Virus record (IMG/VR): IMGVR_UViG_3300043449_000686
Coordinates: 1 to 40,228 of that record
Strand: one strand, 5' to 3'
Source: a virus
DNA: 40,228 bases
In this document: positions 16,801 through 37,057 of the stretch, in pieces
How the letters are laid out: the number at the start of each line of letters is the position of its first letter
Numbering within the stretch: position 1 is the stretch's first letter
Notes under the pieces: model-generated
Database searches by the model: none
What the model was told of the DNA's origin: nothing
Seen by the model: only the letters and a program-made list of their open reading frames with translations
Translations under genes and position numbers: made by a program

Positions 16801-18054
16801 CCAATGTTCTCTGTTGACACAATTACTACGATCGACAAAACAACGTATGCATTCAATGTTGCATCTGAGATGCTGCGTAAATGGCAAGGTCGTGACGCAA
16901 TCGAACAAGTGAATCGTGTCTGGACTTACAGCATCGGTAAAAATCTCGCGGAGAAAGCAGTGCTCGAAGGTAATACCGAATTCCTCAGCAAGTTCGGTCG
17001 TCTAGCGAAAGATGCGAAGACTGGTAAATACAACACTGATGTGATCGCGAAGAACTTCGTTGATCGAGTTCAAGGAACTTATGGCGGTGCTGGATTACCT
17101 TCTTCTGCTGTGGATGGAATGGCTGCTCCGTGGTTTTCACTTGCGCGATGGAGTCTTGAAAAGTCGAATGTTATCTTCCAAGATGTGATCAAGCCTGCTT
17201 ATCGCAGTGAAAATCGTAAGATCGCTCCGTTGTTACAGTATGCTCTCGGTGCTTACTTGACCGGAGAGATGATTGACTCACTCGTGCAAGAGATCAATGC
17301 CGGAAAGAAATCGAACATCCCAACATACAGCGAACTCGCTGCTGCCGATGCGGATGCTGAATCCTATGTCGCGAAACTTGTGAATGTGATGCAACTCGGA
17401 TCATTTGCAGGCATGGCGGGCGATACGCTCAAGATGGCGATGGATGTTTATCGTGGTGAGAATCCTCGTGGTTTCAGTGTTCCTGCTGCTACGTTCATCT
17501 CCGAAGGTGTTGGTGACACTCTCGTGAACTTCACTCGTGCTGTTCGTGATGGCACTGATCCACTGGATGCCGCTGGAATTCTGATGCAGGAACTGTTGCG
17601 AACGCAAATCCAGACTGCTCGCCTCGTCATGAACGCTGTAGATTCTGAAGAAGTGGATCGGAAGAATGCTCTCCGCGACTTACGTCTGTATAAACAGATG
17701 CGTGGTGAATTCATTCCGACCGACTTCCCTCAGGCTAATCCAGCAATGCGCCCTGAAGAACGAGAACTGAAGCGGGCTAATACTCCAGAAGAAGCTCGTG
17801 AAGTCCTACCTCGTGTGGTCCGTAACTTGATGGAACAGCACAAAGATAATCCTCGTGAGTTGCGTAAAGCACTCGACCGACTGAAAAAGAACTCCTTCCA
17901 GACATTCCCGAATCCAACGAATGATCCGGTCGAAGCGCAGCAATACTACAAGTATCTCGTCGATACACTTGGCCCTGTAGAAGCAAGAAAACGTCTGGAT
18001 GAATATATCACCCAAACGTCTCTCAACCGGGCTAAGTCTGCTGCTATCCCTTGA
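10807..18054 (+). CDS. Giant polyvalent internal virion protein with metallopeptidase-like and EIQSDW/HPL-type domains
   Basis: This protein has 2415 residues. In order: a Gly/Ala-rich hydrophobic segment (about 61-122, PLIGPALPPIIGIGSGLIAG) that could insert in membranes; a charged coiled coil (about 282-352); a zincin-like domain with HENFH at 448-452 and a possible third ligand in EELYTIE (503-509); an acidic linker (about 958-982); a domain with VEAQSRWGQ (from 1256) and HPLLADTNRLILKATIDQA (from 1376) that matches the EIQSDW...HPL...AIKrAi pattern of large polyvalent protein domains; then about 900 mostly helical residues. Such giants are ejected with phage DNA and carry several activities. 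No lysozyme or transglycosylase motif is visible. A low-GC island sits at 14600-14925. It ends 11 nt inside the facing gene. Confidence 0.72.
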   Translation: MPTPLTQDEIDEYIKLKGFDPSEATLNTFTGEVTPKVKIQPALSTPTTAEPSKKETFLRSAALSLGPSAASLPVGAAVGMKAAAMSAPLAAVPLIGPALPPIIGIGSGLIAGGLAGMGAGAVQQKVLEQSQTGQEFLNRAALAREANPITSAVGDVAGSISGVRPSPKMMKDAFYALTGAERAAGAGLANKLMHPAVQEIGISGALGGGMSAYEDIQEGKDVNVGKALVNTIGQGIMSNVHPVLSRNVPGLRGTSYTGLPGAEPRQDMFVTERTVNPVEPTPEALNAIAAERAGLGLKLDAIEASMKDVSDKVRLKQLQREAKIKLAEIDIKNKELEAREQVLREKVTFEASPENVAWAEQMARVKGVTDFEAAPTGVLKSDSGQSYGEFTIGPDGKRSIRASTTAAEEGPKGEITTTLPEGMIQERGAEGSTDPSTYIGPRATTLVHENFHNDFVNMIRSEKPAQRKMGSQILTAVERSPEFTEWKSKLSPEALAKMPDPVEELYTIEASKEFFRDPENKSRTWSGERKALARLQKGTGTLQDAVQIGLMKFRYDRGLNANLANAGATGAKASLASDVSAEIARREKNPEMEQMQFPKTAQEGTPLSKFLRDNQELPKDTFLPKKGQMEMRLSQPAPVTKLGSTTNLTITTEENPLKREFFRKYPLLTVIPANRWSKSHLAELFGVDIRSINDFEARFKAENKTAPDWQDIIDKGQYNPKTQPKMERNAEGKMRAVRDEEGNAVLSDRPMKNVITDFTPDAVRVIEKGVQRAIEPMKGVGHGTRRAMIRALESGDNIEFGADVDYTKMLTNRVIQNLSQQGVSVEGGKTGNKNLFMSAARETQRLLRQDYMALREAKEDAFPKLKAERLNRGKVVAESDNSVKADEIRKLINDNFKKFDADEIDSDVYESVLNTQEAKLKELGYSRDEIMDIVEDAESPEFSVEKVLPRTKRPVEDDVEEEVGTVREERDEDGAGDDDSETSYSLPASRISIPPVDEIFVTDVQKQFDLERPYGLQPSKDGKFASSDILAKFRNTPKVEQELLGKPFTDWLTVRSRVSPAEVQEWLEKNGPKVEVVNYGMEGRVSEAKKEYDRMTHEWYEKLSDYEQKQMRPEDRKNLPEEKRSTAKKYWDLMEAIAKEPKDTSPRATSYYNTVSAFDTNQPMSEWTATRSKKNVQRVDVVIPEKDNSGDIRELLKKQNPDYSDAQIEESVRYMANKKEPLWQPDNLHENLPNTLGWAMIQYKDGPNGERVAVIVEAQSRWGQDNRASQERNKKLYNEALKEGLDALESADTIYKTRGGMSWLQKNGGKNNVSNMAFSEQHPEYAAIVKDLPGGTHPITPEIRARLKDAAEKYARMMVNHVASEALKQGHGVIDHPLLADTNRLILKATIDQARKEGATHIMISDAETAMITEKLDSGTKFVFLDTDKITNKSLLRQLRNIEYTKVEKLNETFLDSIADKAEWEAAIIKEELDIPRLEGFRFNYDSSYFLKDAEGNPLTNKGFTSSDDAIRYAENVLHLKPASKYPKDWKGPRDESDYTVVQGDLPSIAAELTGTKGERVSLGEHKNAMDVDSSTGESYGSNVPRTDLVFTNPDGTPKTDVSGMMFDISAPASRREAGEKFTLGGRRFSTPSAPSSLPPSSTAEDRTKQGFIEAIAPQFYKVKDVQVREAMLNMDTQRSMYLGRWHYEPINEFQSKFGGIKEDRLNTIYDRVLETYRDKKKSLVTSGLTPEEVSAAKFLNENIFREVRKTQRDLNMKVETRDGFRREAALSPWYVPEMLNEKAMKAFTKGEESATANHLMDIWADHVVKESKGTVTKNEALSEIQSYVAAIGEGGRRGTEFGALRKAAGYGLPKEMRERNLLRVAQRYSRRAAQDVARFQHLEVPEYVRERLALPDPDTGIATHSKSLLHLEEVRDAMKFVNNSFEIYHSPRIAAFARMVTNGILGPLAGIRDFATIPANIAPYVKVGDIGTVFKSLFDARRDWQKSLKLGARTGLDPMFSVDTITTIDKTTYAFNVASEMLRKWQGRDAIEQVNRVWTYSIGKNLAEKAVLEGNTEFLSKFGRLAKDAKTGKYNTDVIAKNFVDRVQGTYGGAGLPSSAVDGMAAPWFSLARWSLEKSNVIFQDVIKPAYRSENRKIAPLLQYALGAYLTGEMIDSLVQEINAGKKSNIPTYSELAAADADAESYVAKLVNVMQLGSFAGMAGDTLKMAMDVYRGENPRGFSVPAATFISEGVGDTLVNFTRAVRDGTDPLDAAGILMQELLRTQIQTARLVMNAVDSEEVDRKNALRDLRLYKQMRGEFIPTDFPQANPAMRPEERELKRANTPEEAREVLPRVVRNLMEQHKDNPRELRKALDRLKKNSFQTFPNPTNDPVEAQQYYKYLVDTLGPVEARKRLDEYITQTSLNRAKSAAIP

Positions 18055-19648
18055 CGAACTGAATCGACGACACGCCCTTCACAGTTCCATCAATCATAAG
18101 AGCACGCAGTTTCTGAAGTTCTGGTAGTGGAGTATCCCTCTCTACCAGAACTTTTCCATTTCTACCCCATCGAATTCGTTTGTCGAGCGACGGATGCACA
18201 ACTCCACGTGACTCCGCAAACGCACGATCCGAAGCGATTTCGAGTTGGTCTTCAGCAGCATGATTCGGAGGCAGTCGGTAGTATTGAACCTTGTCCTCCT
18301 CACTCGTGACAAGTTTTCCAGTCGTCACCATATACTGCACAATCTCCTGCAAGTCAGCAGTCTTCGCCTCGGTGTAGAAGTTGCTTAACAAATCCTTAAA
18401 CGTCACAGGCTCATTAGCCCGCACGACTAGGAACCGCACGATGTTGCGTGCAATGTTTGCAAATGGATTCTTTGATGCAACCTGCAATGCCAAGTGCATA
18501 TACTTCTCAGTGTTCTCAAGGAACTCCAGTGCTTTGATACAAGTCTCAATTGGAATCACCATCTCTGTCGAATCCGCAAAGTGCATTGCCATGATCAACT
18601 TCACAAGATGCACACGTTTGCGTCCATAATAGGAGATCAGCTTTGAATCCTTATTGATGCGTGAGTGATTGTGAATGTTCTCATACCAATACTTCATGTA
18701 TTCTTCAGCGTCTGGTGCGAGCTTAACTTCACCGTAGAGTGTAGCAAGTTTCCGCATCCATGACAGAAGTTGAGCTTTTGCCATGATCTGTTCTAGTGAC
18801 ATCTCGGAGATGTTCCACTTTTGGAATCGATTCGCGAACGCAAAAACGAAGATGGACCGGGCTGACATACCGCCATTGATGATTGAATCATCGAACGCTT
18901 CTTCCATGTAGTCTGGAGTTGTGCCCGCCAAGAAGTTCACGCACACTTTCGTGACCATGTCTTTACCCATGTTCTTCGTGCGATACTCGTAACGATCTTT
19001 GCAGTCATATCCTTCGAGCAAAAAGTTCACGATGTTCTCCGTGTTCTTCTTGAGCAAGTTCGATAACTCTGTGCTCATCATCGCCATCGTGTTGTGCGTG
19101 TATAACCCTTTCTTCGATGTGCCATTACGAATCGTCTCAAACGAAACCATCCGTGTCGAACGTGCCATGTCGTGAATCAACTGCTCATACGTAGTGCAGT
19201 CTGCGCCGGAAGGAAACAATTGCAAGTGATTATCCTCATCCTCTTTCTGCTCATTCCGCTTCGATGCGTTCGGAAGTAGCATGTTACCACTGACATCTTG
19301 GTGATGGTCGTGCGCCGTTGTGCCGCCTAGCAAATCAGCAGGAACGATTCGTTTGAAGATGCTGTCGGCGTCGAATGGACCTTTGTCTTTGAGTTTGTGC
19401 CATTCGAGAAACTGCTTTACCGGGCCAATCGTGATGCTCTTACCGATGCCGGGATCAGCTACGAGAAACACGTAGAGGTTAGGATACAATGGACGCTCTG
19501 TGCTTCCCCACCACACACGACGTTGTAAGGATGCAGAGATCATCCAATAGAATGACCAGTCAATAAATGCATCTGGAGCTTCTATCGATTTGAGATAGAA
19601 ACGCCAGCGTTCGAGGTTAGTTACTCCGCTTGGTGTTAGAGTTGACAT
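18044..19648 (-). CDS. DUF3987-type P-loop ATPase (replicative helicase/primase-associated)
   Basis: The 534 residues carry a Walker A motif VADPGIGKS at 63-71 preceded by WWGSTERPLYPNLYVFL, the characteristic context of DUF3987 proteins (ATPase found alone or fused to phage primases). Later segments (MMSTELSNLL, VCVNFLAGTTPDYM, INGGMSARSIFVFA) match Walker B/sensor-like strands of the same family, in which MS.ElsnfL and GtTP are recurrent. The last 100 residues look like a winged-helix region (FLVVRANEPVTFKDLLSNFY). It is the last gene of the minus-strand operon. Its start overlaps the polymerase C-half stop by one base (TAATG). The probable role is a motor at the replication fork. Confidence 0.65.
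   Translation of the reverse strand: MSTLTPSGVTNLERWRFYLKSIEAPDAFIDWSFYWMISASLQRRVWWGSTERPLYPNLYVFLVADPGIGKSITIGPVKQFLEWHKLKDKGPFDADSIFKRIVPADLLGGTTAHDHHQDVSGNMLLPNASKRNEQKEDEDNHLQLFPSGADCTTYEQLIHDMARSTRMVSFETIRNGTSKKGLYTHNTMAMMSTELSNLLKKNTENIVNFLLEGYDCKDRYEYRTKNMGKDMVTKVCVNFLAGTTPDYMEEAFDDSIINGGMSARSIFVFAFANRFQKWNISEMSLEQIMAKAQLLSWMRKLATLYGEVKLAPDAEEYMKYWYENIHNHSRINKDSKLISYYGRKRVHLVKLIMAMHFADSTEMVIPIETCIKALEFLENTEKYMHLALQVASKNPFANIARNIVRFLVVRANEPVTFKDLLSNFYTEAKTADLQEIVQYMVTTGKLVTSEEDKVQYYRLPPNHAAEDQLEIASDRAFAESRGVVHPSLDKRIRWGRNGKVLVERDTPLPELQKLRALMIDGTVKGVSSIQFVKG
18116..18153 (+). terminator. Long inverted repeat, likely terminator of the rightward transcript
   Basis: A perfect 12-bp stem AAGTTCTGGTAG (18116-18127) / CTACCAGAACTT (18142-18153) with a 14-nt loop is followed on the plus strand by TTCCATTTC, so four T in a row end and follow the stem. 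It lies 62 nt past the giant gene stop, inside the 3' coding end of the facing gene. On the minus strand the tail is TTCAGAAAC, which is poorer, so rightward termination is favoured. It could act in both directions. Confidence 0.55.
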
Positions 19649-20673
19649 TATAGCTTTATCTCTTTCAGTCCTGTTGGATTCTTCTTCTCATGCCAAGGTG
19701 CCCAATTACTCCCAATTGACGCCTCACTTCGCATACGAAACTTCTCGCCCCGTGGTGCTGTCATCTCGATCTCTATGAACTCCTTCATCTTCTTGGCGAT
19801 TCCTTCGATCTCTCCTGTAGGAGCCTGCACCAAATACGAATCATGGCAGTTATTGAGTATGACCGAGCTAGGCGAATTAGCTTCGATCCATCGTTGCATC
19901 TCCACAACCGCAAGGTTCGTGATGCAACCAACAGTAGATTGAGGAATGAAAGCATATGCTTCTTTGGGGTCAGTTACGAGTGAGCAAAACTTACGAGGAT
20001 AACCAAACAGATTACGGAGTTCACCTTTCTGTTCCAACGTATTCATCACGAGACGATGGAAGATATGGAGTTCAGGAAACGCTACATCACGATACGTAGA
20101 GAGAAACTTGTCAGCTTCTGCACGGGTGATGACGACTTTACCTTCTGACTTTTCGAGTAGGTTCTGCTGGAATGTATTACCCATGATGCCGTAATTCCCG
20201 CTATGGCATGTCTGCTTGTAGAAATAATAATACCGTGTCGAAGTTTGTGGAGAGTTATCTGACGCTGCCACAGCTTTCGCAAACGATGGCCAGTTAGGAT
20301 GATTCTTTAGCTCAGCAATTTTTATGCTGGAGAACTCCTTAACCATTGGAAACTGTTTCATCCAATGCTCTGGAAAGAACACACCGATATAGACGTGAGG
20401 TTTGATACCGTTTAGGAACAGATCACGAAACCTACCTGGTGGGCAGAGATAAGCAACAATCAAAGCCTCTGCGCCTGATTGGTCTACTTGGCAGAACGAG
20501 CATCCTTCGTCAGCAATGAATAACTTACGCAAAGACTTCTCGATATTTTGACAATTAGTGCCATACTCGGGACCATACGCACTAGATTGTTTTTTGCTTT
20601 TTGCAAATAACTTGCCAGAGCCAAGACGAAAGGTGTTTGTTCTAGCCAACCGAAAGCAGGTTGTTACACGCAT
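19648..20673 (-). CDS. Family A DNA polymerase, C-terminal (palm/fingers) half of a split gene
   Basis: The 341 residues hold all three polymerase motifs: motif A FCQVDQSGAEAL (catalytic Asp64, Glu69), motif B with RYYYFYKQTCHSGNYGIMG (Lys153, Tyr161, Gly162) and motif C NNCHDSYLV (Asp278, with Ser instead of the usual Glu after HD). The first residues VTTCFRLARTNTFRLGS correspond to the T.TGRL region that follows the thumb in intact Pol I enzymes, so the protein begins exactly where the N-half gene (22157-23704) stops. It has no exonuclease. Its ATG lies inside the last codons of the HNH gene (ATGCGTGTAA). The two halves presumably assemble into one enzyme. An inactive remnant is unlikely, because the key residues and the reading frame are intact. 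Confidence 0.88.
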   Translation of the reverse strand: MRVTTCFRLARTNTFRLGSGKLFAKSKKQSSAYGPEYGTNCQNIEKSLRKLFIADEGCSFCQVDQSGAEALIVAYLCPPGRFRDLFLNGIKPHVYIGVFFPEHWMKQFPMVKEFSSIKIAELKNHPNWPSFAKAVAASDNSPQTSTRYYYFYKQTCHSGNYGIMGNTFQQNLLEKSEGKVVITRAEADKFLSTYRDVAFPELHIFHRLVMNTLEQKGELRNLFGYPRKFCSLVTDPKEAYAFIPQSTVGCITNLAVVEMQRWIEANSPSSVILNNCHDSYLVQAPTGEIEGIAKKMKEFIEIEMTAPRGEKFRMRSEASIGSNWAPWHEKKNPTGLKEIKL

Positions 20674-21245
20674 AAAACATCCCTTTTATACTCTTTTACA
20701 GCAGCCGCAGCCTGAGCCTCAGTTTTGAATGATCCCAAGTAAACTTCTTTACCTTTTGAGTTATTCCATACACTTGCTTGCCACAAGCCTTTATTAAACC
20801 TGTAACACTTTCCGTCAGTCCTAACTCTTCTGTTATTAGACTGTTCTTTAGCTGTTGCCCATCGACAATTAGACGGTTCATAGTTACCCTCATTGTCTAT
20901 TCTATCTATGGAGTGAAATTTTGAAGGCTTCGGTCCCATGTCTATGTAGAACATTTCAAAACTATCTAGCCAACTCTGACAAACAGTTATACCACGGCCT
21001 CCATATTGTGGATATTTATTACAATTTTTATTTACACAACGATCTACCATGTGACTCCAGTTTTTATATTCTGGTTTTGCTGTGTTTCCATTGGCAGTTC
21101 TTTGCATACAACCGCAACTTTTAACTGTCTTATGTTTTACATTACCCCATTTTGATCTAGCTACAGAACCACAATGGCATATAAACAGATAGTATGAAGC
21201 AGTTTTTAATAGCTTCGTTGAAATTTCATCTATTAAAGTAAGCAT
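20664..21245 (-). CDS. HNH homing endonuclease with AP2-like C-terminus, inserted between polymerase halves
   Basis: The 193 residues start with a Zn-knuckle region (CHC at 23-25, SCGC at 43-46), followed by the phage HNH core: WSHMVDRCVN, YGGRGITVC, FHSIDRIDNEGNYEPSNCRW (from 110) and QSNNRR. His111 and the Asn residues at 121-138 are in place. The C-terminus (GLWQASVWNNSKGK, YLGSFKTEAQAAAAVKEYK) resembles an AP2-like DNA-binding domain. These enzymes cut target DNA and spread by homing. The gene is clearly richer in A/T than its neighbours and has no Shine-Dalgarno sequence (leader TTTAATTGAATT), both signs of recent arrival. Its last codons overlap the start of the polymerase C-half by 10 nt. 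Confidence 0.9.
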   Translation of the reverse strand: MLTLIDEISTKLLKTASYYLFICHCGSVARSKWGNVKHKTVKSCGCMQRTANGNTAKPEYKNWSHMVDRCVNKNCNKYPQYGGRGITVCQSWLDSFEMFYIDMGPKPSKFHSIDRIDNEGNYEPSNCRWATAKEQSNNRRVRTDGKCYRFNKGLWQASVWNNSKGKEVYLGSFKTEAQAAAAVKEYKRDVLCV

Positions 21246-21695: not shown

Positions 21696-22164
21696 GAAAG
21701 ATTCCTTTGTGGTTTGGTCCCCAATAAAACCAAGCATAATCTTTACTGTCCGTCTTTCCATCTTGTGTGAAACATGGGCGTTTGCTCAAGATCATCAATG
21801 CATCTGGTTCATTCTTCTTGAACCAAGCAGCACGAGTTTGCGAAGCAAGGAAATTCAACGGCAACAGCATAATGACTTCAGGACTATGGAGCATGGCATG
21901 TTGCACAAATTGAAATGCCCAGAGGAATGGAGGATTTGTAATGATGCCTTCTCTGTATGTTGTGTCTTTCAGGAAGTCAACTTTGGTTGTGCGTATATCA
22001 TCAGCAGTTACACTATATCCATGCTCTTCTAGCACATTTACGATAGCCTTGTCTCCAGCTGCACATTCATGCCATGTCTTACCATGTGCTACAAATGTAA
22101 CGATGCTAAGAATTGCATCCCTTGGAGTTGGATAAAAATCGTAGGGGTTTCTTGGTTTAGACAT
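21688..22164 (-). CDS. Small SAM-dependent adenine methyltransferase-like protein
   Basis: The 158 residues begin MSKPRNPYDFYPTPRDAI, the usual opening of phage N6-adenine methyltransferases. HECAAGDKAIV (33-42) is the SAM-binding motif I, with a DxxxxD-like acidic strand TADDIRTTKVDF. TNPPF (76-80) is the catalytic NPPY-type motif IV. IMLLPLNFLASQTRAAWF follows as in dam-like phage enzymes. The family is often longer, so this is a compact version. The start overlaps the polymerase N-half stop (ATGTCTAA), and the stop overlaps the next gene. It lies inside the split polymerase locus. It may protect phage DNA from restriction, but the target site cannot be read from sequence. Confidence 0.65.
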   Translation of the reverse strand: MSKPRNPYDFYPTPRDAILSIVTFVAHGKTWHECAAGDKAIVNVLEEHGYSVTADDIRTTKVDFLKDTTYREGIITNPPFLWAFQFVQHAMLHSPEVIMLLPLNFLASQTRAAWFKKNEPDALMILSKRPCFTQDGKTDSKDYAWFYWGPNHKGIFHV

Positions 22165-23704
22165 AAGCTTTCTCCGGCCAACTGTTAATTCCTGCAAGGA
22201 AGGATGTTTCCTTTTTCACGCCCGCATACCGCAATCGCAAATCAATTACTGGATTCTCTATCCCGCTCTTCGCCAACGCGAGCTTCATTTTCAACATCGC
22301 TCCAGCATCACACGCAGGCTCACCTGAGAGCGTTTTATACGGCACTTTGTAACCGAGCATTGTGTAGAAATACTTCGCTGCTTGTTTATTCGACGACATC
22401 AAACTCGCATCACTCTTACCTTTGACCAAATCGAATGCCACATCTCCTACGAGCATCTTCGCTATCCGTTGTAGCTGCATCATGTATCGATCATTCTCTG
22501 ATACGATATTCCGTAGCGTTTCCTCATCCATCTTCATGCCCTTCAGTGTCGCTACCAAATAAGGATAAATCATCGACTGACCTTGCTCGATTGACGCCTT
22601 CAATCCGCTATCGTTCGCACACTCCCTGTCAAACGCGGACTTCAACACTCGCATCGCATACACATCTTTCGCGTTATACAACCACAACTGTCGCTCTTGA
22701 TCCATACTTCGAGGATCAAACACGCCTTCATCTTTGTGATATGCTTCATCAGTCCACAAGGATAAGCAATGCCCCAGCGATTTCTCAGCCTCAGGATAAC
22801 ACCGATTGTGCGAGATCATCGTGTCATACAGACGCTTACCAAACGGAACACGATAATTGTGTGCTAACACCAACCAATCAAATCCGTGACCGTTGTGCGA
22901 CACAACGAGATTATCTCGCATCGCTACAGACAGAGCACGTAGTATTTGTGACATGACAGTTGGCTCATACGCCAACGTAAAATCATATCGCCTAAACGGG
23001 ATGACATAGGCTGGTTCACCAGCACCTTCAAAGCAGAATCCAATGCACGTGAGCGTTCTGTCGAAGGTAGTTTCGATGTCCAGATAAAGTGTAGTGCCCT
23101 TTGTGCTTTGTAAAAGTGAGACAACCTGTGATCCAGAAGGATAGAGAATAGGGCTTGGTTGTGTGGTTCGGCTAAGTCCTTGCCGTAGAATGCGTCCCGA
23201 TTTCTTGACATCGCATTCAGTCCAGAACTTGTAGTTCTGCCTTCGTGTCGAACCCTTGTGGCCTTTAGCTTCGTCATCGTCAGCGGTTTCAGAATCTTCA
23301 CGAGGTCCACTGTGGTGTGGATTAAGTCGGGCTTCATAGTTTTGCAAATCGTAACAGTCTTGAGGAAAGAAGGAAGAGAGATAGACAATTCCGTTCTTGA
23401 TGTGAGGCGAACCCCGCTGTTCGGAAAGGGAGTGCTCGGGGCTAAAGAGCTTTTGTTGAGCAGCTTGCCCCAAGCACAACACAACTTTCGTATCCGCGAG
23501 CAATGGATCTTCTACGTCCATCGTGCGAATGTCACATTGGAAACGATTCAGCCCTATTCCGCGCAGTGCCGTGTCACAAAACCATGTTCCAGCATTACCC
23601 GAAAGCAATTGACGAAAGTCGAATCGTGAAGGATTCGACAGCACAATCGTCAATCCCTTATACGGGAGTTTCGGAGGGTGATGGAATGTTTTAGGAGTGG
23701 GCAT
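22157..23704 (-). CDS. Family A DNA polymerase, N-terminal half: UDG-like domain, 3'-5' exonuclease and thumb
   Basis: This protein has 515 residues. About 15-120 looks like a uracil-DNA-glycosylase-type fold (KVVLCLGQAAQQKLF, then SLSEQRGSPHIKNGIVYLS). About 200-360 is a DnaQ-like exonuclease with ExoI LYLDIET (Asp209, Glu211), ExoII NGHGFDW (Asn271, Asp276) and ExoIII YNAKD (Tyr343, Asp347). About 370-515 is the start of the polymerase thumb (LMSSNKQAAKYFYTMLGYKV, YKTLSGEPACDAGAM, RLRYAGVKKETSF). It then stops at WPEKAYV, just before the region that opens the C-half gene at 20673. Proofreading acts on the strand made by the other half. It starts within TAATG of the small membrane protein upstream. 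Confidence 0.85.
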   Translation of the reverse strand: MPTPKTFHHPPKLPYKGLTIVLSNPSRFDFRQLLSGNAGTWFCDTALRGIGLNRFQCDIRTMDVEDPLLADTKVVLCLGQAAQQKLFSPEHSLSEQRGSPHIKNGIVYLSSFFPQDCYDLQNYEARLNPHHSGPREDSETADDDEAKGHKGSTRRQNYKFWTECDVKKSGRILRQGLSRTTQPSPILYPSGSQVVSLLQSTKGTTLYLDIETTFDRTLTCIGFCFEGAGEPAYVIPFRRYDFTLAYEPTVMSQILRALSVAMRDNLVVSHNGHGFDWLVLAHNYRVPFGKRLYDTMISHNRCYPEAEKSLGHCLSLWTDEAYHKDEGVFDPRSMDQERQLWLYNAKDVYAMRVLKSAFDRECANDSGLKASIEQGQSMIYPYLVATLKGMKMDEETLRNIVSENDRYMMQLQRIAKMLVGDVAFDLVKGKSDASLMSSNKQAAKYFYTMLGYKVPYKTLSGEPACDAGAMLKMKLALAKSGIENPVIDLRLRYAGVKKETSFLAGINSWPEKAYV

Positions 23705-28320: not shown

Positions 28321-29199
28321 TCAGAGTGAATCAATACCCAACACTTGCTTTCGGAGGAACCAATGTTGAAGCTGACGGATGTTACCTCTGAGTTCAGCAC
28401 GTCGACTGAACAAATGTTCAGCATCCTCTTCCGTTCCACCATACAGTTTCGCCAACAACTTGAAGTCTTCGAGACAGCGTTCACGTATGGGTTTGAGTTC
28501 CACTTCAAACACAGCAAGACGGAAATACAAATCCATACGGAACTCTTGATCATTGACCGCTGACCACAGATGTTTGTGTGTAGCACTCACGAATCGACAG
28601 GAGATTTCTTCGTCAGCATTCGATCCAACACGACGGACCACTTTGTTCTGGATTGCACGTAGCAGCTTCGGTTGCATCGGCTTGGGAAGATCACCGATTT
28701 CATCCAGAAAGATTGTGCCATCTCGTGCTTCCTGCAACAGTCCCGGTCTGTCGGTATATGCGCCAGTGAATGCACCCTTGCAATGACCGAATAGTTCGGA
28801 CTCGATCAAGTTCTCACTGATTGCTGCACAGTTGATAGCTACGAACTTCCCGAAGCGAGTATTGTGCAACGCTCTGGCGATGAACTCTTTACCAGTTCCA
28901 CTCTCTCCTTGAATCAGAACAGGATGATTCAGTGGAGCTAGTTTCTTGATCTGTTCTTTCATGTTGAGCAAGTCTGGATCGGCAGTGACAAATCGATCAA
29001 GCCAAGCCATAGATGGCTGACCGGGCTGGACTGTTGGTGAAGCAGGCGGAGCCTTAGGGATTTGCATGGTCATCTGCCGGGCTTCACGATCGGAGATGAT
29101 TGACTCTGCACGCAACATGTTGATCCGTTCACGTTGTGATGGACCAGACATTGCTGCACGGAACCTACGCATCTCTGCTGCTTTTTCTTCTGATGTCAT
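28321..29199 (-). CDS. Sigma-54-dependent transcription activator (NtrC-type AAA+), without sensor or DNA-binding domain
   Basis: The 292 residues carry a full activator core: Walker A GESGTGKE (98-105), the sigma-54 contact loop GAFTGA (142-147, in ESELFGHCKGAFTGAY), Walker B GTIFLDEIGD (161-170), the arginine-finger region FRMDLYFRL (220-228) and the lid RGNIRQLQ (271-278). The GAFTGA loop is intact, so it should be able to open sigma-54 promoters. The first 75 residues show no receiver, GAF or PAS domain, and the protein stops about 14 residues after GNIRQL, so the usual Fis-type helix-turn-helix is absent, with no frameshifted remainder downstream. It overlaps the upstream gene by 4 nt. 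It is likely made in the ligase operon and activates the sigma-54-like elements at 34872 and 35579. Confidence 0.9.
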   Translation of the reverse strand: MTSEEKAAEMRRFRAAMSGPSQRERINMLRAESIISDREARQMTMQIPKAPPASPTVQPGQPSMAWLDRFVTADPDLLNMKEQIKKLAPLNHPVLIQGESGTGKEFIARALHNTRFGKFVAINCAAISENLIESELFGHCKGAFTGAYTDRPGLLQEARDGTIFLDEIGDLPKPMQPKLLRAIQNKVVRRVGSNADEEISCRFVSATHKHLWSAVNDQEFRMDLYFRLAVFEVELKPIRERCLEDFKLLAKLYGGTEEDAEHLFSRRAELRGNIRQLQHWFLRKQVLGIDSL

Positions 29200-29519
29200 A
29201 TTAGTTGGAGTTGAGGAGTGGATTGAGGTTTCTGACGTTGACGTTTGTTGTTTCCTGGCTTTTCGTTACCAAATATTCTAGCACACCATGCTGACCATAG
29301 TGAGTGCGCCCGGTTTCCATAGAATGTTTCCGTTCGACGTGATCCGAATTCAAATGTCACGTAGAATCTCCAGTGATCAGCTTGTGACAGCGAGCGTTTC
29401 TCATGCATCGGCACACCAAGATATGTTGGGACAGGAGGCAGTGCTGTGCACCTCATGCCGAACTCATTCTCCCAGCCTTTCGTAGCGATGGAGACTTTCC
29501 GCAAATCAATGACTCTCAT
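29196..29519 (-). CDS. Unidentified 107-residue protein
   Basis: The protein starts MRVIDLRKVSIATKGWENEF and includes HWRFYVTFEFGSRRTETFYG and a strongly basic C-terminus (NEKPGNNKRQRQKPQ), suggesting nucleic-acid contact. No domain recognised. It overlaps both neighbours by 4 nt, at the ligase end (29516-29519) and at the activator start (29196-29199), so all three are probably translated together. Confidence 0.6.
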   Translation of the reverse strand: MRVIDLRKVSIATKGWENEFGMRCTALPPVPTYLGVPMHEKRSLSQADHWRFYVTFEFGSRRTETFYGNRAHSLWSAWCARIFGNEKPGNNKRQRQKPQSTPQLQLI

Positions 29520-30412
29520 AGAGATACATCGTGAGGGTTACGGAATCGCTTAAATACAGGACAGCGGGGCGCTTCTTTCACACCGCACTTTTGTGATTCG
29601 TATTCGACTATACGACCCTGTAATGAAGCACGTTCACTCCAGAGTTTAGCACGCAAGTCAGCATCAAATCCTGTGCCGATACTGAACGCGACATTCGTGT
29701 CAATGTCTCGCACTAACAGTGACCCTAGCGTTCCCGCTGGAATCTTACCGCTCTTCTTATGTGACCGTTTCGATAACCCCAGTTCCGACTGGAATGCAGC
29801 GTTCGTGTTCGTCATCTGCTCCACTGCACACAACACAATCGCTTTACCTGTGACCATTGGTTTCCATTTCACCATCTCCTGCTTCGTCATTGTGGATTGA
29901 CCGCACTTGTAGAAAGATTCTGGACAGCGAAGAACGAGGCCTTCATGTTTGTATGCAATAGACAGGTCATATAGATCTTGCAGTTCTTTTCTGCTGTGAC
30001 ACATGTTGTAGTATGCATGCACTACATTAAGTAATCCAGCACAGCGACCATACAAAAGTTCATGATCAAGATACCGCTGCCTCTCTCGAAAGCATGTATT
30101 ATCTACAGCCCAATCAAATACGTGATACTCAATAGCACTTGCATCAGCATCCTCAGTCATCACGATGGATTCGATATCTTGGAATGGCATTCTATACTTG
30201 AACAGTTCGCCATCAAACCCATTCGGAATGATCGGATTCTCAACCATCGCTCGCAACTGCCTATTCACAATCGGCTTCATCGACTTCGACAATGCCTTGC
30301 CATCTACCTTGATACACCGGATTCCATCCCGTTTGAATCCAGCGTAAACTGGAAGACGAATGTCATCAAGTGATGTCATTGTTACTGCCCGCATTGGTCT
30401 TGTGATTTTCAT
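29516..30412 (-). CDS. ATP-dependent DNA ligase
   Basis: This 298-residue protein has the nucleotidyltransferase motifs in order: motif I YAGFKRDGIR with the likely adenylated Lys27, motif III FDGEL (67-71) with YHVFDW nearby, motif IV EGLVLR (157-162) and motif V VKWKP (181-185). A C-terminal OB-like part follows (GTLGSLLVRDIDTNVAFSIG, then LRAKLW). I chose the ATG at 30412, which has AGGA 8 nt upstream inside the end of the helicase C-half gene; longer in-frame starts would add a Met/Arg-rich tail. It seals nicks in newly made or repaired phage DNA. It overlaps the next gene by 4 nt. Confidence 0.85.
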   Translation of the reverse strand: MKITRPMRAVTMTSLDDIRLPVYAGFKRDGIRCIKVDGKALSKSMKPIVNRQLRAMVENPIIPNGFDGELFKYRMPFQDIESIVMTEDADASAIEYHVFDWAVDNTCFRERQRYLDHELLYGRCAGLLNVVHAYYNMCHSRKELQDLYDLSIAYKHEGLVLRCPESFYKCGQSTMTKQEMVKWKPMVTGKAIVLCAVEQMTNTNAAFQSELGLSKRSHKKSGKIPAGTLGSLLVRDIDTNVAFSIGTGFDADLRAKLWSERASLQGRIVEYESQKCGVKEAPRCPVFKRFRNPHDVSL

Positions 30413-30416
30413 AATG

Positions 30417-31634
30417 TTATTCCTGTTCTTCATCCTCTTCCTCATCCACATCTGCACCACCACTATCATCCACAATCTCTGTCACTTTGTTACCCTCACT
30501 ATCGAAGCTCACCTTGTGATTCTCTGCTGCGTCAACAATACAGTCTTCCCATGACTCACGTTGACGCACCACCTCTCGCAAACAACGCAACTTCTGTGAC
30601 ACCTTGTCAGCGATGTGTTCCTCAATGGTTCCTTTGAAGAACACCATCGTCTGAATCGTTTCGGACAGAGACGTCAAGCGCGGAGCACGACCGAGTCCTT
30701 GCACAAGTTCGATTGCGGAATAACACGGGGCGATGATTGACTCTCGCGGTAGCAGGTCTGGCTTACAGTGGTGCAGACTCAATCCCACACCACCCGCTTT
30801 GAACGTGAACAAACAGATCTTGCTCTTGCCTTCTTGAAACCTATCAATCTCTTCCTGTCGTTGAGTCTTCGATTGCGTTCCGAGTTGCATGTTTTGCAAA
30901 TCATCAGCAGTGATAGTCTTGAGTCCAGCTTGTGTGAGCTTAGCCCGGTCGTCCAGTTCCTGTGACAAATCCACAGTGCTCACAACCTTGCTCTCGTCAC
31001 TATCGCTCACTACACACAGTCGCACGTTTAGCGCTTTCAACAGTTCAAGATCCTCTGGCGAAAACAACTTGAACTTAGACTCAGGTATTCGTTTCTCCTT
31101 CAGCTTCACCTTACCATCACTCGTGAACATACCACCCATACCACCCCAGATGATACTGATGTCACTGCGTTTGTATCCATGCTTGTTCATCAGCACTTTG
31201 ATTGTAGCGGCGATAGACTCCTTGAACTTATACGCTACTACTGCTGCTTTACCACGCGAACAGATGTCATGAGCCATGTCAGCAACATCCTCATGTCGAA
31301 TGAGTTCAGCACTCTGCGAGAACTTCATCATTGCGACGAGCTTCTGAAACGTGCCAAGCTCTTTCATACCGCCCTTGATCAGTTCCATCTCACGTTCATA
31401 TCGTTCCCATGTGAACTTGTATTGCTCGCGTTGTTTGTCATTGCGGAACTCGATAAGTTTGACCCGATTGCGGGCAGGGAACTTAGCCTTCACACCCTTG
31501 ATGTCAATGATGTAAGGCTTCATCGCCTTGATCAATCGCTCCATTGCGGGCGGATCGTAAGCATCAACGGATGCGGGCGCTGCGATTGTTGCTGACCACG
31601 TAGGCCAGACTGCGTTTGTTATGTGGCCGTTCAT
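30417..31634 (-). CDS. SNF2-type helicase, C-terminal motor half of a split gene
   Basis: The 405 residues hold only the second RecA-like lobe of a SNF2-family helicase: motif IV region AAVVAYKFKESIAATIKVL, motif V FTFKAGGVGLSLHH (277-289), motif VI QGLGRAPRL (312-320), then VFFKGTIEEHIADKV. It opens with TNAVWPTWSATIAAP and MERLIKAMKPYIIDIKGV, which in intact phage SNF2 helicases follows the SATP motif. That motif ends the separate gene at 33173-34216. No Walker A is present, so alone it cannot be an ATPase. The C-terminus is very acidic (DVDEEEDEEQE). It starts 1 nt after the preceding stop and ends 4 nt before the ligase start. Confidence 0.82.
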   Translation of the reverse strand: MNGHITNAVWPTWSATIAAPASVDAYDPPAMERLIKAMKPYIIDIKGVKAKFPARNRVKLIEFRNDKQREQYKFTWERYEREMELIKGGMKELGTFQKLVAMMKFSQSAELIRHEDVADMAHDICSRGKAAVVAYKFKESIAATIKVLMNKHGYKRSDISIIWGGMGGMFTSDGKVKLKEKRIPESKFKLFSPEDLELLKALNVRLCVVSDSDESKVVSTVDLSQELDDRAKLTQAGLKTITADDLQNMQLGTQSKTQRQEEIDRFQEGKSKICLFTFKAGGVGLSLHHCKPDLLPRESIIAPCYSAIELVQGLGRAPRLTSLSETIQTMVFFKGTIEEHIADKVSQKLRCLREVVRQRESWEDCIVDAAENHKVSFDSEGNKVTEIVDDSGGADVDEEEDEEQE

Positions 31635-31635
31635 A

Positions 31636-32031
31636 TTACAGATCTAGTTTACCTTTGATGATGTCACGTTCAGTTTGCTCCAGAGCCTTGATCATGGGGA
31701 GAGGGTTAGGTTTATATCCGAGACGCTTGTTATAATAAGCATGAAATGGTGATTGTTTTTCATCAGCATCATCAGACTCTTCATCACAAGGAACATTGCC
31801 TCGTGACATATAGAGAGAGCATGTAGCGCAGTTGCTATGACGCAAACACAAAGAACAATTCGCGTTACTTGGCGTAGGTAATTCTGCTCGCGTCACATCA
31901 TGCTTCTTCAAGCTCTCTTCCGTCAACCCCCTCCATTTACGGATCGAGTGTTGCACTGCTTCAAGCTCAGATGTAACTGCATGAGATGCAGGCACTGGCA
32001 TGAATTCTTCCATCCATGTTTGTAGGCTCAT
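31636..32031 (-). CDS. Cys-rich 131-residue protein in the helicase gap
   Basis: The start is MSLQTWMEEFMPVP; the ATG at 32031 overlaps the upstream stop (ATGA) and has AAGGA 8 nt before it. A cluster of cysteines (CSLCLRHSNCATCSLYMSRG, then PC) with three CxxC-like pairs suggests a metal site, as in a group of uncharacterised phage proteins that share the ending CxxCPL. The C-terminus (KPNPLPMIKALEQTERD) is helical. It lies between the two halves of the SNF2 helicase. Function unknown. Confidence 0.6.
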   Translation of the reverse strand: MSLQTWMEEFMPVPASHAVTSELEAVQHSIRKWRGLTEESLKKHDVTRAELPTPSNANCSLCLRHSNCATCSLYMSRGNVPCDEESDDADEKQSPFHAYYNKRLGYKPNPLPMIKALEQTERDIIKGKLDL

Positions 32032-32348
32032 AGTTTTATTCCTTTCACCTTGCATAGTGCGATGGTTCGTTGTTGCCATGAGGCGTGCGCTGCGGCGCGT
32101 CCATTTCCACACTCAAGGTATAGGGTTTCGATATATTTGTTAATATAAAGTTCAGCATTCATACTCTCTTCCACCATCCAACAGAGATGGAGGAGTTCCG
32201 TGTCGAGGACTTCTTTGTAATTACCTGCTGAATACTTAAAGACTGGTCTCCAAAATAAACCAGCATCACCTTGTGGAGAACCATTGCATATAATGTCCGG
32301 CAACATCTTCGCGAGTGCCTGCTTTAGTTGTGTGTCTGTGAATTCCAT
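32028..32348 (-). CDS. Unidentified 106-residue protein in the helicase gap
   Basis: The protein starts MEFTDTQLKQALAKMLPDII. It is helical, with a Trp/Cys-containing core (LHLCWMVEESMNAELYINKY) and a C-terminus that resembles short phage proteins of unknown role (RAAAHASWQQRTIALCKVKG). It has no ribosome binding site that I can see (leader TTTTAATCT) and is coupled to the next gene by ATGA. No domain recognised. Confidence 0.55.
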   Translation of the reverse strand: MEFTDTQLKQALAKMLPDIICNGSPQGDAGLFWRPVFKYSAGNYKEVLDTELLHLCWMVEESMNAELYINKYIETLYLECGNGRAAAHASWQQRTIALCKVKGIKL

Positions 32349-32361
32349 AGATTAAAATTAT

Positions 32362-32562
32362 TCAATCCAAATTATCTACCCATATCCCCGCATCCCTCAA
32401 AATAGCAAGACTAATTTGATAATCAGACTCTAGCCGCTTTTCTTCATTTCGGGCAACTTGCGCGGCGTGCTTTAGAGCATCTTGCTGAATTTGCTTAACA
32501 AGCACAACCCATTCAGTCCTAAATGGCAGATTAGGACGCAACCATAATTCTGCATTTTTCAT
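32362..32562 (-). CDS. Small phage protein with an IQxDAL helix (paralogue 1)
   Basis: The 66 residues have the central helix VKQIQQDALKHAAQVAR, a pattern seen in many small phage proteins of unknown role and shared with the neighbouring gene (VNQIQLDAMREGMRRAATI). The ending is DAGIWVDNLD. It lies in the helicase gap with short spacers on both sides. The two are probably a tandem duplication that has diverged. Confidence 0.6.
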   Translation of the reverse strand: MKNAELWLRPNLPFRTEWVVLVKQIQQDALKHAAQVARNEEKRLESDYQISLAILRDAGIWVDNLD

Positions 32563-32569
32563 AATTAAA

Positions 32570-32839
32570 TTACTCTAAATCTTTCTCAGTTAGTTGTTCT
32601 GCGGCGGAGAGGATTGCTTGCTTACGTAGCACTAGTGCATCACATACTAGTTTATGTAGATACACGGTCCCGTTCTTGTCTAGTATTGTTGCCGCCCTCC
32701 GCATGCCTTCACGCATAGCGTCGAGTTGGATTTGATTGACGGTGTCAAGGTCAAGATTGTCATAGTCTCTCCAATCCGCGCCTTCAGTAGTTCCTGCTTC
32801 TTTTACCCATTCTTCTGCTGATTTCATTTTCATACTCAT
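32570..32839 (-). CDS. Small phage protein with an IQxDAM helix (paralogue 2)
   Basis: The 89 residues start MSMKMKSAEEWVKEAG, a common opening for small phage proteins, and contain VNQIQLDAMREGMRRAATIL, resembling the helix of the next gene downstream. In-frame ATGs at codons 3 and 5 are alternative starts. Its first ATG overlaps the upstream stop (ATGA at 32836-32839). Function unknown. Confidence 0.6.
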   Translation of the reverse strand: MSMKMKSAEEWVKEAGTTEGADWRDYDNLDLDTVNQIQLDAMREGMRRAATILDKNGTVYLHKLVCDALVLRKQAILSAAEQLTEKDLE

Positions 32840-33087
32840 ATATTATATCTCCCGTTCACTCCTGCATCATACCAACCGTAAGGTTCCACTACAGGTGATC
32901 CAACATCAGCCCGGCGACGGAGTCCAGATGTATGTTTCCGTTTCAAATCCATCCCTTCGATGTCGTAGCAGGGCTTACAAACCGGAGTGTTGTGCTTCAT
33001 CTTAAACATTGGTTTGCCACAGTAACACAACCTGACTTTCGGTTTCGGCCCTCGTTTCTTTTGTAGATGTTTGGGTATTCTTGGCAT
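32836..33087 (-). CDS. Zinc-ribbon-like basic protein
   Basis: The 83 residues begin MPRIPKHLQKKRGPKPKVRL, a strongly basic tail with an AT-hook-like RGPKPK, followed by CYCGKPMFKMKHNTPVCKPC, which offers a Zn site (CxC...CxxC). DNA or RNA binding is likely. It lies in the helicase gap. No family named. Confidence 0.62.
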   Translation of the reverse strand: MPRIPKHLQKKRGPKPKVRLCYCGKPMFKMKHNTPVCKPCYDIEGMDLKRKHTSGLRRRADVGSPVVEPYGWYDAGVNGRYNI

Positions 33088-33102
33088 AGCATACGCATGT
33101 AG

Positions 33103-33168
33103 TTACCACAACAATGCTTTAATAAGGCTATTACGCGCTTTTGCTTGGTGTTTGTTTAGGTTTTTCAT
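33103..33168 (-). CDS. Possible 21-residue basic peptide in the helicase gap
   Basis: A short frame of 22 codons starts 4 nt after the helicase N-half stop and reads MKNLNKHQAKARNSLIKALLW, a basic amphipathic helix. No Shine-Dalgarno sequence, but reinitiation after the helicase stop is possible. It fills most of the 85-nt gap. It could equally be untranslated spacer; weak support. Confidence 0.25.
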   Translation of the reverse strand: MKNLNKHQAKARNSLIKALLW

Positions 33169-33172
33169 ATGT

Positions 33173-34216
33173 TTATTCAGTTCCCATCTCCGCTCTCGTT
33201 GCAACACAGAAACATTTCGCTTCACATACACGCATGAAGGGTGTTGCACTCGAAAAGATCTGCACTATCTTGGATGCTTCTTTGCCATGCGTGAGTTCGT
33301 TCACGTCATTCAACGCCTGAGCTATCCGTGATTGAATCGAATCAACGTTCTTCAGAATCTGTGACTCATCCCAGATTACTAGACGAGGGATGTTACGTGG
33401 ACGCCATGTGAACAGCGTGTGCTCTTGTCCAGAGATGACCACCGTCTGTTCCGCTACGAACACCTTGCCGATATTCGCACGTAACTGCTCGATGTTTGTC
33501 ACCATGCACAGCATATCATCTACACCAAAACATTGTTCCAATACTCGCTTCGTCTGCTCAACAATCGAGGCTTTCGTCACGTATAAAACTGGCCACATTG
33601 CCCGTGAGTCATCGAAATATCCTAAACGTTTGAGTGCGGCAATAGCAGCACCGAGCATATACGTCTTACCGTATCCAGTGCCAGCGAGCAGCAAGTTTGC
33701 ACGGTGTTTGTGGATGTGCAAGTTGCGAACTATCTCTTTAGCCTTGCGGATTTGGAATGGAAATGGAATTACTTTTGGATTGGCTTCGAGTTCTGGCAAG
33801 TCGATTGTGATTTCTTCTTCGGTGTCAGAGGACTCAGCAGCAGGTGCAGTCGTGGTTGGAACACTGATTACAGTCTCCTCCTTCTGAACCACAGGCTCCG
33901 CAACTTTAACCTCAACTCTAGACTGCTCACTTACTACTGCCTTCGCTTTACTCGCAAGCAACTCACGTCCCTGCAAAATCAACGCCGTAAGTTCATCATG
34001 TGTGATCAGTTTGTTTTCTCGCCCGGCTCTGTCTATTCCTAACGTGTCACACACCGTGAACAAGTCTTGCGACTTGCCCATCCTGTGCATGAAACGAATC
34101 CGTTGTGCAGTTCCTTCGTATTGTTTCTGTAGGAACGCCAACTTCGCGGCTTCAGTCTGTGCACCAAACGTGCGTTGACTGTGCCATCCTTTAGGTTTGA
34201 TTAGTGGAGTGCTCAT
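33173..34216 (-). CDS. SNF2-type helicase, N-terminal motor half of a split gene
   Basis: This is a 347-residue protein. After about 145 residues of basic and Val/Glu/Thr-rich sequence come Q-motif-like PFPFQIRKAKEIV, Walker A LAGTGYGKTYM (178-185), LYVTKASIVEQTKRVL (motif Ia), Walker B RLVIWDESQILKN (DESQ at 283-286) and motif III FSSATPFMRV (321-330). It then stops at RAEMGTE. The second motor lobe is missing here but is encoded intact at 30417-31634, 1.5 kb downstream. A DExx-box ATPase cannot translocate without lobe 2, so the two products must associate if it is active. It follows a small membrane protein gene by 10 nt. Confidence 0.83.
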   Translation of the reverse strand: MSTPLIKPKGWHSQRTFGAQTEAAKLAFLQKQYEGTAQRIRFMHRMGKSQDLFTVCDTLGIDRAGRENKLITHDELTALILQGRELLASKAKAVVSEQSRVEVKVAEPVVQKEETVISVPTTTAPAAESSDTEEEITIDLPELEANPKVIPFPFQIRKAKEIVRNLHIHKHRANLLLAGTGYGKTYMLGAAIAALKRLGYFDDSRAMWPVLYVTKASIVEQTKRVLEQCFGVDDMLCMVTNIEQLRANIGKVFVAEQTVVISGQEHTLFTWRPRNIPRLVIWDESQILKNVDSIQSRIAQALNDVNELTHGKEASKIVQIFSSATPFMRVCEAKCFCVATRAEMGTE

Positions 34217-36173: not shown

Positions 36174-36527
36174 TTATTTGTTGTTTTGTTTCTCTAACCA
36201 AATCTTACGTCTCCGAGAGTATTCTATTTCTAATTCTAGACAACGACTACGATCCTTACCAAAAACGTCACCGTCACATATACAGTTTAACAATTCCATT
36301 GTTAGAGGAATGGTTTCAAGATCAATAGCAGGAATACCATTTGAAACATAGTTGAATTTAGGTGATGGTGGTAATGATTCTTTTTTCTGTTTAACTGGAA
36401 TCAAAACTTTAACAGGCTTTGCACGATCAATCTCTTCTCGTTCAAAGTCACGACCTCTAGTTTTGAAGCCGGATAAACGGTCAGCAGCTTCTTTGTATGT
36501 TTCAGTCAATGTGTATGGCATAAGCAT
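36174..36527 (-). CDS. Unidentified 117-residue protein
   Basis: The ATG at 36527 (MLMPYTLTETYKEAADRL) lies inside the last codons of the preceding gene; the ATG two codons later and an upstream TTG are alternatives. The protein is basic and helical at both ends, with ETIPLTMELLNCICDGDVFG in the middle and SRRRKIWLEKQNNK at the end. No family recognised. Confidence 0.55.
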   Translation of the reverse strand: MLMPYTLTETYKEAADRLSGFKTRGRDFEREEIDRAKPVKVLIPVKQKKESLPPSPKFNYVSNGIPAIDLETIPLTMELLNCICDGDVFGKDRSRCLELEIEYSRRRKIWLEKQNNK

Positions 36528-37057
36528 GTTAAATCTTTGGATGGCCAAATGTAGGGCAGTGTTGTTGGCTCAGTCCATTTGAATTGAGAATAATAATCGA
36601 AATCCTTCCGAAGAAGATTGCTGCGATGTGAGGCGTGAAAGGATTCGTTGCCGAGCCATGGAGGGTAGTGATACAATGGATATTGAGGATCAAACTTGAT
36701 GTTACGAAGTTCAATTTCAAGGTTATTTGTCCACAACATCATGTTGCATATCTTTTCGGTGCAAGTGTCTGCGAATCCTCTGCAACGCCATTCATAGCAA
36801 CAATGACATGCATAAAGGGCAAGAGCTTGTTCATACCCCTTCCACATCTGCACTGCTGGATGATTATACCATGGGGTTTTGCGGTGAATAGCAACAGTAT
36901 CTCCAGTTCGTCCATCTACTTTCTGAATGACTTCTGTTGGACCCTTAGCGAGAGTCTTCAAAATCTGCAAACACTCGACTCGTTGCTTGCCAAGTCGTTT
37001 GTTGTCGAGAACACGTGCTGATTCGGTGAAGGATGGATAAGGTAGGAAAGTTTGCAT
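36506..37057 (-). CDS. Pyrimidine-dimer DNA glycosylase-like protein (MSMEG_6728/DenV-type)
   Basis: The 183 residues start MQTFLPYPSFTESARVLDNK and continue with RLGKQRVECLQILKTL, NHPAVQMWKGYEQALALYA, PPWLGNESFHASHRSNLLRK and PYIWPSK, all hallmarks of the family related to T4 endonuclease V (DUF1722/MSMEG_6728-like pattern LDn.RLgkQR.E...hP...MW.Gy...H.SHrs.LlrK). Such proteins are predicted to bind or cut damaged DNA, protecting the phage genome from UV. Thr2 or the early basic residues may act as the nucleophile region. It has no clear ribosome binding site and overlaps the next gene by 22 nt. Confidence 0.78.
   Translation of the reverse strand: MQTFLPYPSFTESARVLDNKRLGKQRVECLQILKTLAKGPTEVIQKVDGRTGDTVAIHRKTPWYNHPAVQMWKGYEQALALYACHCCYEWRCRGFADTCTEKICNMMLWTNNLEIELRNIKFDPQYPLYHYPPWLGNESFHASHRSNLLRKDFDYYSQFKWTEPTTLPYIWPSKDLTCLCHTH

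Follow-up and report, generated by a model that had tools for sequence, protein, structure and literature searches.

Two neighbouring phage genes likely encode the separate lobes of one SF2 motor

Introduction

Phage enzymes encoded in two genes have been described in several systems. The split nrdA of phage Aeh1 is fully active, the 43A and 43B products of the split gene 43 of Aeromonas phage 25 co-purify with polymerase activity, and a subunit of T4 topoisomerase is split in two genes; the breaks in nrdA and topoisomerase contain homing endonuclease genes (PMC2988022). In jumbo phages, reconstitution from separate proteins was proposed for DNA polymerase III alpha and RNA polymerase (PMC7824862). 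An SF2 motor broken between its two RecA lobes was not found in the limited set of open-access literature searched. Such motors close their two lobes on bound ATP, and a tether within a single chain normally connects these lobes.

Here we analyze a 40,228-nt stretch of virus DNA (positions 1 to 40,228 of IMG/VR record IMGVR_UViG_3300043449_000686), referred to as the window. A sequence-only reading of the window had proposed that an SNF2-type helicase is split there between its two motor lobes.

Results

The two halves of the helicase

The proposed halves are encoded by the following genes:

33173-34216, minus strand: N half (lobe 1, SF2/SNF2-like motor), 347 aa; Walker A, Walker B, and SATP
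30417-31634, minus strand: C half (lobe 2), 405 aa; motifs V and VI and an acidic C-terminal tail

The Walker A, DESQ, and SATP motifs attributed to the N half in the sequence-only reading are all present: Walker A is GTGYGKT (G181-T185), Walker B is WDESQ (D283-E284), and motif III is FSSATP, with SATP at S323-P326; the protein ends in ...CFCVATRAEMGTE*. The C half, starting with MNGHITNAVWPTWSATIAAP, has no Walker A, in agreement with that reading, and its ORF contains the lobe-2 motifs V (GGVGLSLHH, 281-289) and VI (VQGLGRAPRLTS, QGLGRAPR), the key residues of the latter being Q312, R316, and R319.

A search of 50,697 reference phage records returned no match to the N half, remote SNF2-like helicases only for the C half, and no close relative of either; a scan of bacterial and archaeal genomes also found no relative. 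Relatives were found among IMG/VR contigs. The first split ones were L004, L003, and L009, whose N halves share 76% (L004) and 56% (L003) identity with that of the window and whose C halves share 88%, 64%, and 67%, respectively. The N half of L009 lies beyond the contig end, and its split was deduced because the C half is immediately preceded by a small, unrelated ORF. Scans with motif VI and a relaxed motif V added L067, L068, L073, and L074, and in each of them the break lies in the same loop.

Intact relatives and position of the break

Motif V of the C half, converted to a degenerate DNA pattern and scanned against IMG/VR, returned 33 loci, four of them on contigs of split relatives identified beforehand. 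The remaining loci belong to the same helicase at ~30-47% identity, and the non-split ones with the whole gene visible have a single ORF of 576-782 aa. Further scans yielded unbroken genes in L066, L070, L071, and L072. More than 20 intact single-gene relatives of ~520-800 aa, many of them syntenic, thus cross the break point in one ORF, as illustrated by L031 (...FISATPFTRVSEAKCFAVSTRKDIS-KMLGLPHGAQ-LSNSTWPTYASSIAYP...).

Alignment with the intact proteins places the window N half up to a variable-length loop and the start of the C half directly after it. As read from this alignment, the break removes the variable loop that connects motif III to lobe 2, with no other loss, which bears out the proposals that the motor is divided between its lobes and that the ends of the halves are continuous with intact helicases. 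In an AlphaFold model of intact L031 (pLDDT 79), the break falls in loop 346-361, between helices 335-344 and 366-374.

The gene pair and the intact gene are also syntenic, both lying upstream of ligase, g107, or sigma-54-type AAA genes. Downstream neighbours shared by split and intact genomes are the ligase (in many), g107, the sigma-54-type AAA gene, and a PD-(D/E)XK gene. The synteny anchor in the window is:

29516-30412, minus strand: ATP-dependent DNA ligase; downstream neighbour in L004 and many intact genomes

The sigma-54 gene of the window (28321-29199, minus strand) encodes a stand-alone sigma-54 activator AAA+ domain (Sigma54_activat, E 2e-60) with a GAFTGA loop, and it keeps its place near the helicase in most relatives.

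Recurrence and age of the split

Eight distinct phage contigs, the window included, have their break at this loop between motif III and lobe 2; they belong to three deep lineages. The seven other contigs come from different assemblies and show both halves in six cases; in every contig with both visible (7/7), the two genes are co-directional neighbours. The distance between them is 11 nt in L073, where the halves are in different frames, 86 nt in L067, 251 nt in L004, 384 nt in L074, 1,049 nt in L068, 1,538 nt in the window, and 1,998 nt in L003. A single 914-aa frame reported by a tool for L074 was rejected, as the DNA shows stops and separate ORFs. Since the arrangement recurs in seven other contigs from different assemblies and is syntenic with the intact gene, it is not due to chance. 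The split is real and conserved, not a local accident.

In the phylogenetic tree, the window, L004, L003, and L009 form one clade (100/100), L067, L068, and L074 form a second (99/99), and L073 stands apart on a long branch. A first tree had suggested one split clade, a picture superseded by at least three deep split lineages once L067, L068, L073, and L074 were added. The best tree has three changes, although a single clade of all eight was not rejected (p-AU 0.377), and some intact outgroups sit on long branches. The split is old, resulting from one ancient event or from up to three at the same loop.

Selection and retained residues

Every split genome has full-length ORFs for both halves where these are visible. 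The dN/dS values were 0.06-0.11 for the N half and 0.05-0.16 for the C half, rough ratios given the saturated dS, and both halves are under strong purifying selection. Using 80 columns invariant in the main intact clade, we found that split genomes keep 86-95% (N) and 82-95% (C) of the residues, while the intact outgroups L070 and L071 keep 81-90% (N) and 78-81% (C). Residues invariant across intact and split rows are, in lobe 1, G181, G183, and K184 of Walker A, D283, E284, S323, A324, and P326 and, in the C half, Q312, R316, and R319. In SF2 enzymes, ATP bound to lobe 1 is acted on by arginines that motif VI of lobe 2 supplies; the retention of these arginines thus argues for continued contact between the halves.

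Family assignment

Typical SF2 lobe-1 motifs (GTGYGKT, DESQ, and SATP) occur in the window N half and are conserved in the split N halves, with matches to the Pfam DEAD and ResIII domains (E 4e-6). Lobe 2 has motifs V-VI with arginine fingers (GGVGLSLHH and QGLGRAPR) and matches Pfam Helicase_C weakly (E 4e-4). The usual SF2 arrangement of both lobes in one chain is seen in the intact relatives, as opposed to two ORFs here. The best PDB fold matches of the intact L031 model were SNF2 motors (ISWI, Sulfolobus SNF2, Chd1, and Rad54; E about 5e-13), and the window C-half model, of moderate quality (pLDDT 69.6), matched the folds of INO80, Rad26, and Rad54. A PDB sequence search with the N-half profile gave a chance match only, and defence-system models gave only weak helicase-domain matches.

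The SNF2-type label of the sequence-only reading thus holds for the fold and, by profile, for lobe 2. It does not extend to the lobe-1 sequence, which had no match to the Pfam SNF2-related domain at E up to 1, nor to motifs I, II, and VI (G.G.GKT, DE.Q, and QGLGR..R), which are non-canonical for SNF2. The pair is best called an SF2 motor of SNF2-like fold.

Content of the gap

Between the C half and the N half lie 1,538 nt (31635-33172), which, as had been noted, hold five small genes and a tiny frame:

33103-33168, minus strand: 21-codon frame MKNLNKHQAKARNSLIKALLW; absent in L004, L003, and L073
32836-33087, minus strand: protein Z, 83 aa, Cys-rich and basic (CxC...CxxC, RGPKPK); 63-66% identical among the window clade
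32570-32839, minus strand: 89-aa cargo ORF of the QIQLDAMREGMRRAA family
32362-32562, minus strand: 66-aa cargo ORF
32028-32348, minus strand: 106-aa cargo ORF; homologues outside the helicase in intact L028, L037, L040, and L051
31636-32031, minus strand: ~131-aa Cys-rich cargo ORF (CSLCLRHSNCATCSL)

The 21-codon frame is probably unimportant. Several gap ORFs are joined by ATGA start-stop overlaps, and no endonuclease family was recognised among those of the window. The family of the 89-aa ORF is also present in the L003 gap and, by eye, in the L068 gap, and it occurs outside the helicase in L004, L048, and L052. A homologue of the ~131-aa ORF is positioned upstream of the C half in L003 and upstream of the N half in L004. 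The gap is empty in L073, contains a 27-aa putative membrane peptide in L067 and protein Z only in L004, and holds several ORFs each in L068, the window, and L003. As the cargo differs between relatives, is found elsewhere in some, and is absent in L073, the gap behaves like any other intergenic site, and the split does not depend on the genes inserted there. The idea that the small genes belong to the split consequently fell, given their variation between relatives and the 11-nt gap of L073.

Protein Z directly follows the N half in the window, L004, and L003, the three genomes with this stretch visible, has the conserved end VEPYGWYDGGVNGRYN, and its gene shares an ATGA overlap with the next one. 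Searches of Pfam, PHROG, NCBIfam, and PADLOC assigned it to no family, and it was found in the window clade only. Ribosomes could read through in frame from the N half into protein Z in L004 and L003 but not in the window. Protein Z was also considered as a lost segment of the helicase and rejected in this role, since intact proteins have only a short loop at this place and no stretch resembling Z was found in them. Protein Z could conceivably derive from a degenerate endonuclease.

In three split genomes, the C half is immediately preceded by a tiny ORF with the look of a small membrane peptide (L067: 4158-4244, minus strand; L085: 2620-2727, minus strand; L009: 10-159, plus strand), and the three are mutually dissimilar.

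Split polA and other genes of the window

A family A DNA polymerase is also distributed over two window genes, with a 1.5-kb gap between them:

22157-23704, minus strand: polA N-terminal part, 515 aa, RNase_H_2 exonuclease-like
19648-20673, minus strand: polA palm part, 341 aa, DNA_pol_A

In 14/14 records checked, including intact-helicase genomes, the palm part has an ORF of its own, usually of 333-385 aa, with a 518-aa frame reported for one record. Gaps in relatives are ~410-690 nt where measured and differ in content; no Rfam intron was found in the polA gap. A 193-aa ORF in the window gap (20664-21245, minus strand) resembles, by eye, an HNH/AP2-type homing endonuclease and has no Pfam match at E 0.01.

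Elsewhere in the window are a predicted protein of 2,415 aa (10807-18054, plus strand), perhaps an internal virion or injection protein, and a pyrimidine dimer DNA glycosylase family protein (36506-37057, minus strand; Pyr_excise, E 1e-23).

Discussion

The two neighbouring genes encode lobes 1 and 2 of one SF2 motor, and it is very probable that their products assemble into a two-chain motor, whose physical assembly, ATPase/translocase activity, and cellular role we infer. Lobe 1 (33173-34216) and lobe 2 (30417-31634), neighbouring and co-directional, would be translated separately, with the break at the variable loop that lies between the helix following motif III and the helix opening lobe 2. 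By binding both DNA and each other, the two proteins would bring the motif-VI arginines of lobe 2 to the ATP that Walker A/B of lobe 1 hold and so complete the site, and the resulting two-chain translocase could serve the phage replication/recombination module. Once the halves had become separate cistrons, their boundary would act as an intergenic site into which small phage genes could move. The ATP site is thus probably completed between two polypeptides, which fits the lack of an intron match, of an intein-sized extension, of decay, and of a second helicase in the searched records, together with purifying selection and the conserved motif-VI arginines.

Joining of the halves at the RNA or translation level, by a self-splicing intron, ribosomal bypass, or frameshift, has some appeal, since introns are common in phage replication genes, the gap in polA of the same genome contains the HNH/AP2-like ORF noted by eye, and the L073 halves are only 11 nt apart in different frames. 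We consider it very unlikely. Intron-type joining, an objection raised in the sequence-only reading itself, found no counterpart in Rfam, group I/II models giving no match in the gaps of the window, L004, or L003, even at E 5; the gaps moreover range from 11 to 1,998 nt, differ in content, and include other ORFs and several ATGA overlaps, and splicing would probably leave a loop shorter than that of the intact relatives. For L073 only, a frameshift may fuse the halves; no canonical slippery heptamer was seen there by eye. Trans-splicing by a split intein has a negligible probability: inteins of this kind occur in replication proteins of phages and bacteria, but in all contigs the homology to the intact helicase extends to ~5-20 residues from where the N half ends and resumes ~2-20 residues into the C half, leaving no room for intein parts, and the sequence refutes this candidate.

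That the gene is broken and decaying, with the fragments as relics, is scarcely credible, even though intact relatives exist. Full-length ORFs persist in every split genome with dN/dS of 0.05-0.16, catalytic motifs are kept as well as in intact outgroups, and the split is conserved across very divergent lineages. In addition, the records of the window, L004, L003, and L009 contain no second match to the helicase profile, and as virus records may be fragments, a second copy elsewhere is possible for the window. Separate cistrons could also allow different amounts of the two products and hence separate functions, for example nucleotide binding by lobe 1 on its own and DNA binding or regulation by lobe 2. 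This is improbable, given the invariant Q312, R316, and R319, which by general SF2 knowledge act on lobe-1 ATP, and the constant co-directional neighbourhood in the seven contigs with both genes visible. Assembly of the two products into one motor is the reading we retain. A more specific version, which we regard as doubtful, is an obligate heterodimeric SF2 motor that has stayed stable across deep divergence of the phages and whose lobes can be dosed separately or swapped; within the window clade, protein Z might bridge or regulate them.

A natural, long-lived untethered motor would indicate that the tether is dispensable in evolution and would offer a system for how lobe coupling, directionality, and processivity depend on it, with the intact orthologues as natural controls. 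Together with the presence of polA in two genes in the same phages, it points to a lineage tolerating or favouring broken replication enzymes.

The nearest systems are the intact relatives (IMG/VR contigs in L026-L057, L066, L070, and L071), which share the motifs of the window, ~30-47% identity across both halves, and, in many, the order of ligase and sigma-54-type AAA genes, but form one polypeptide with the loop between motif III and lobe 2 unbroken. SNF2-like phage helicases such as Microbacterium phage Pumpernickel gp111 and those of Gordonia phages align with lobe 2 by profile (prob 98.3, E 1.7e-14), whereas they are single chains and align weakly with the window lobe 1. Aeh1 nrdA, phage 25 gene 43, and T4 topoisomerase resemble the window motor as phage enzymes in two genes, the enzymes themselves being different; as for nrdA-type split enzymes, intact relatives exist and both halves are complete and under selection. 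The breaks in nrdA and topoisomerase carry a homing endonuclease, unlike the helicase gap, which has no recognisable endonuclease and in one case spans 11 nt. Jumbo-phage DNA polymerase III and RNA polymerase are likewise catalytic enzymes proposed to form from separate phage proteins, although neither is a helicase and the Pol III pieces are encoded far apart.
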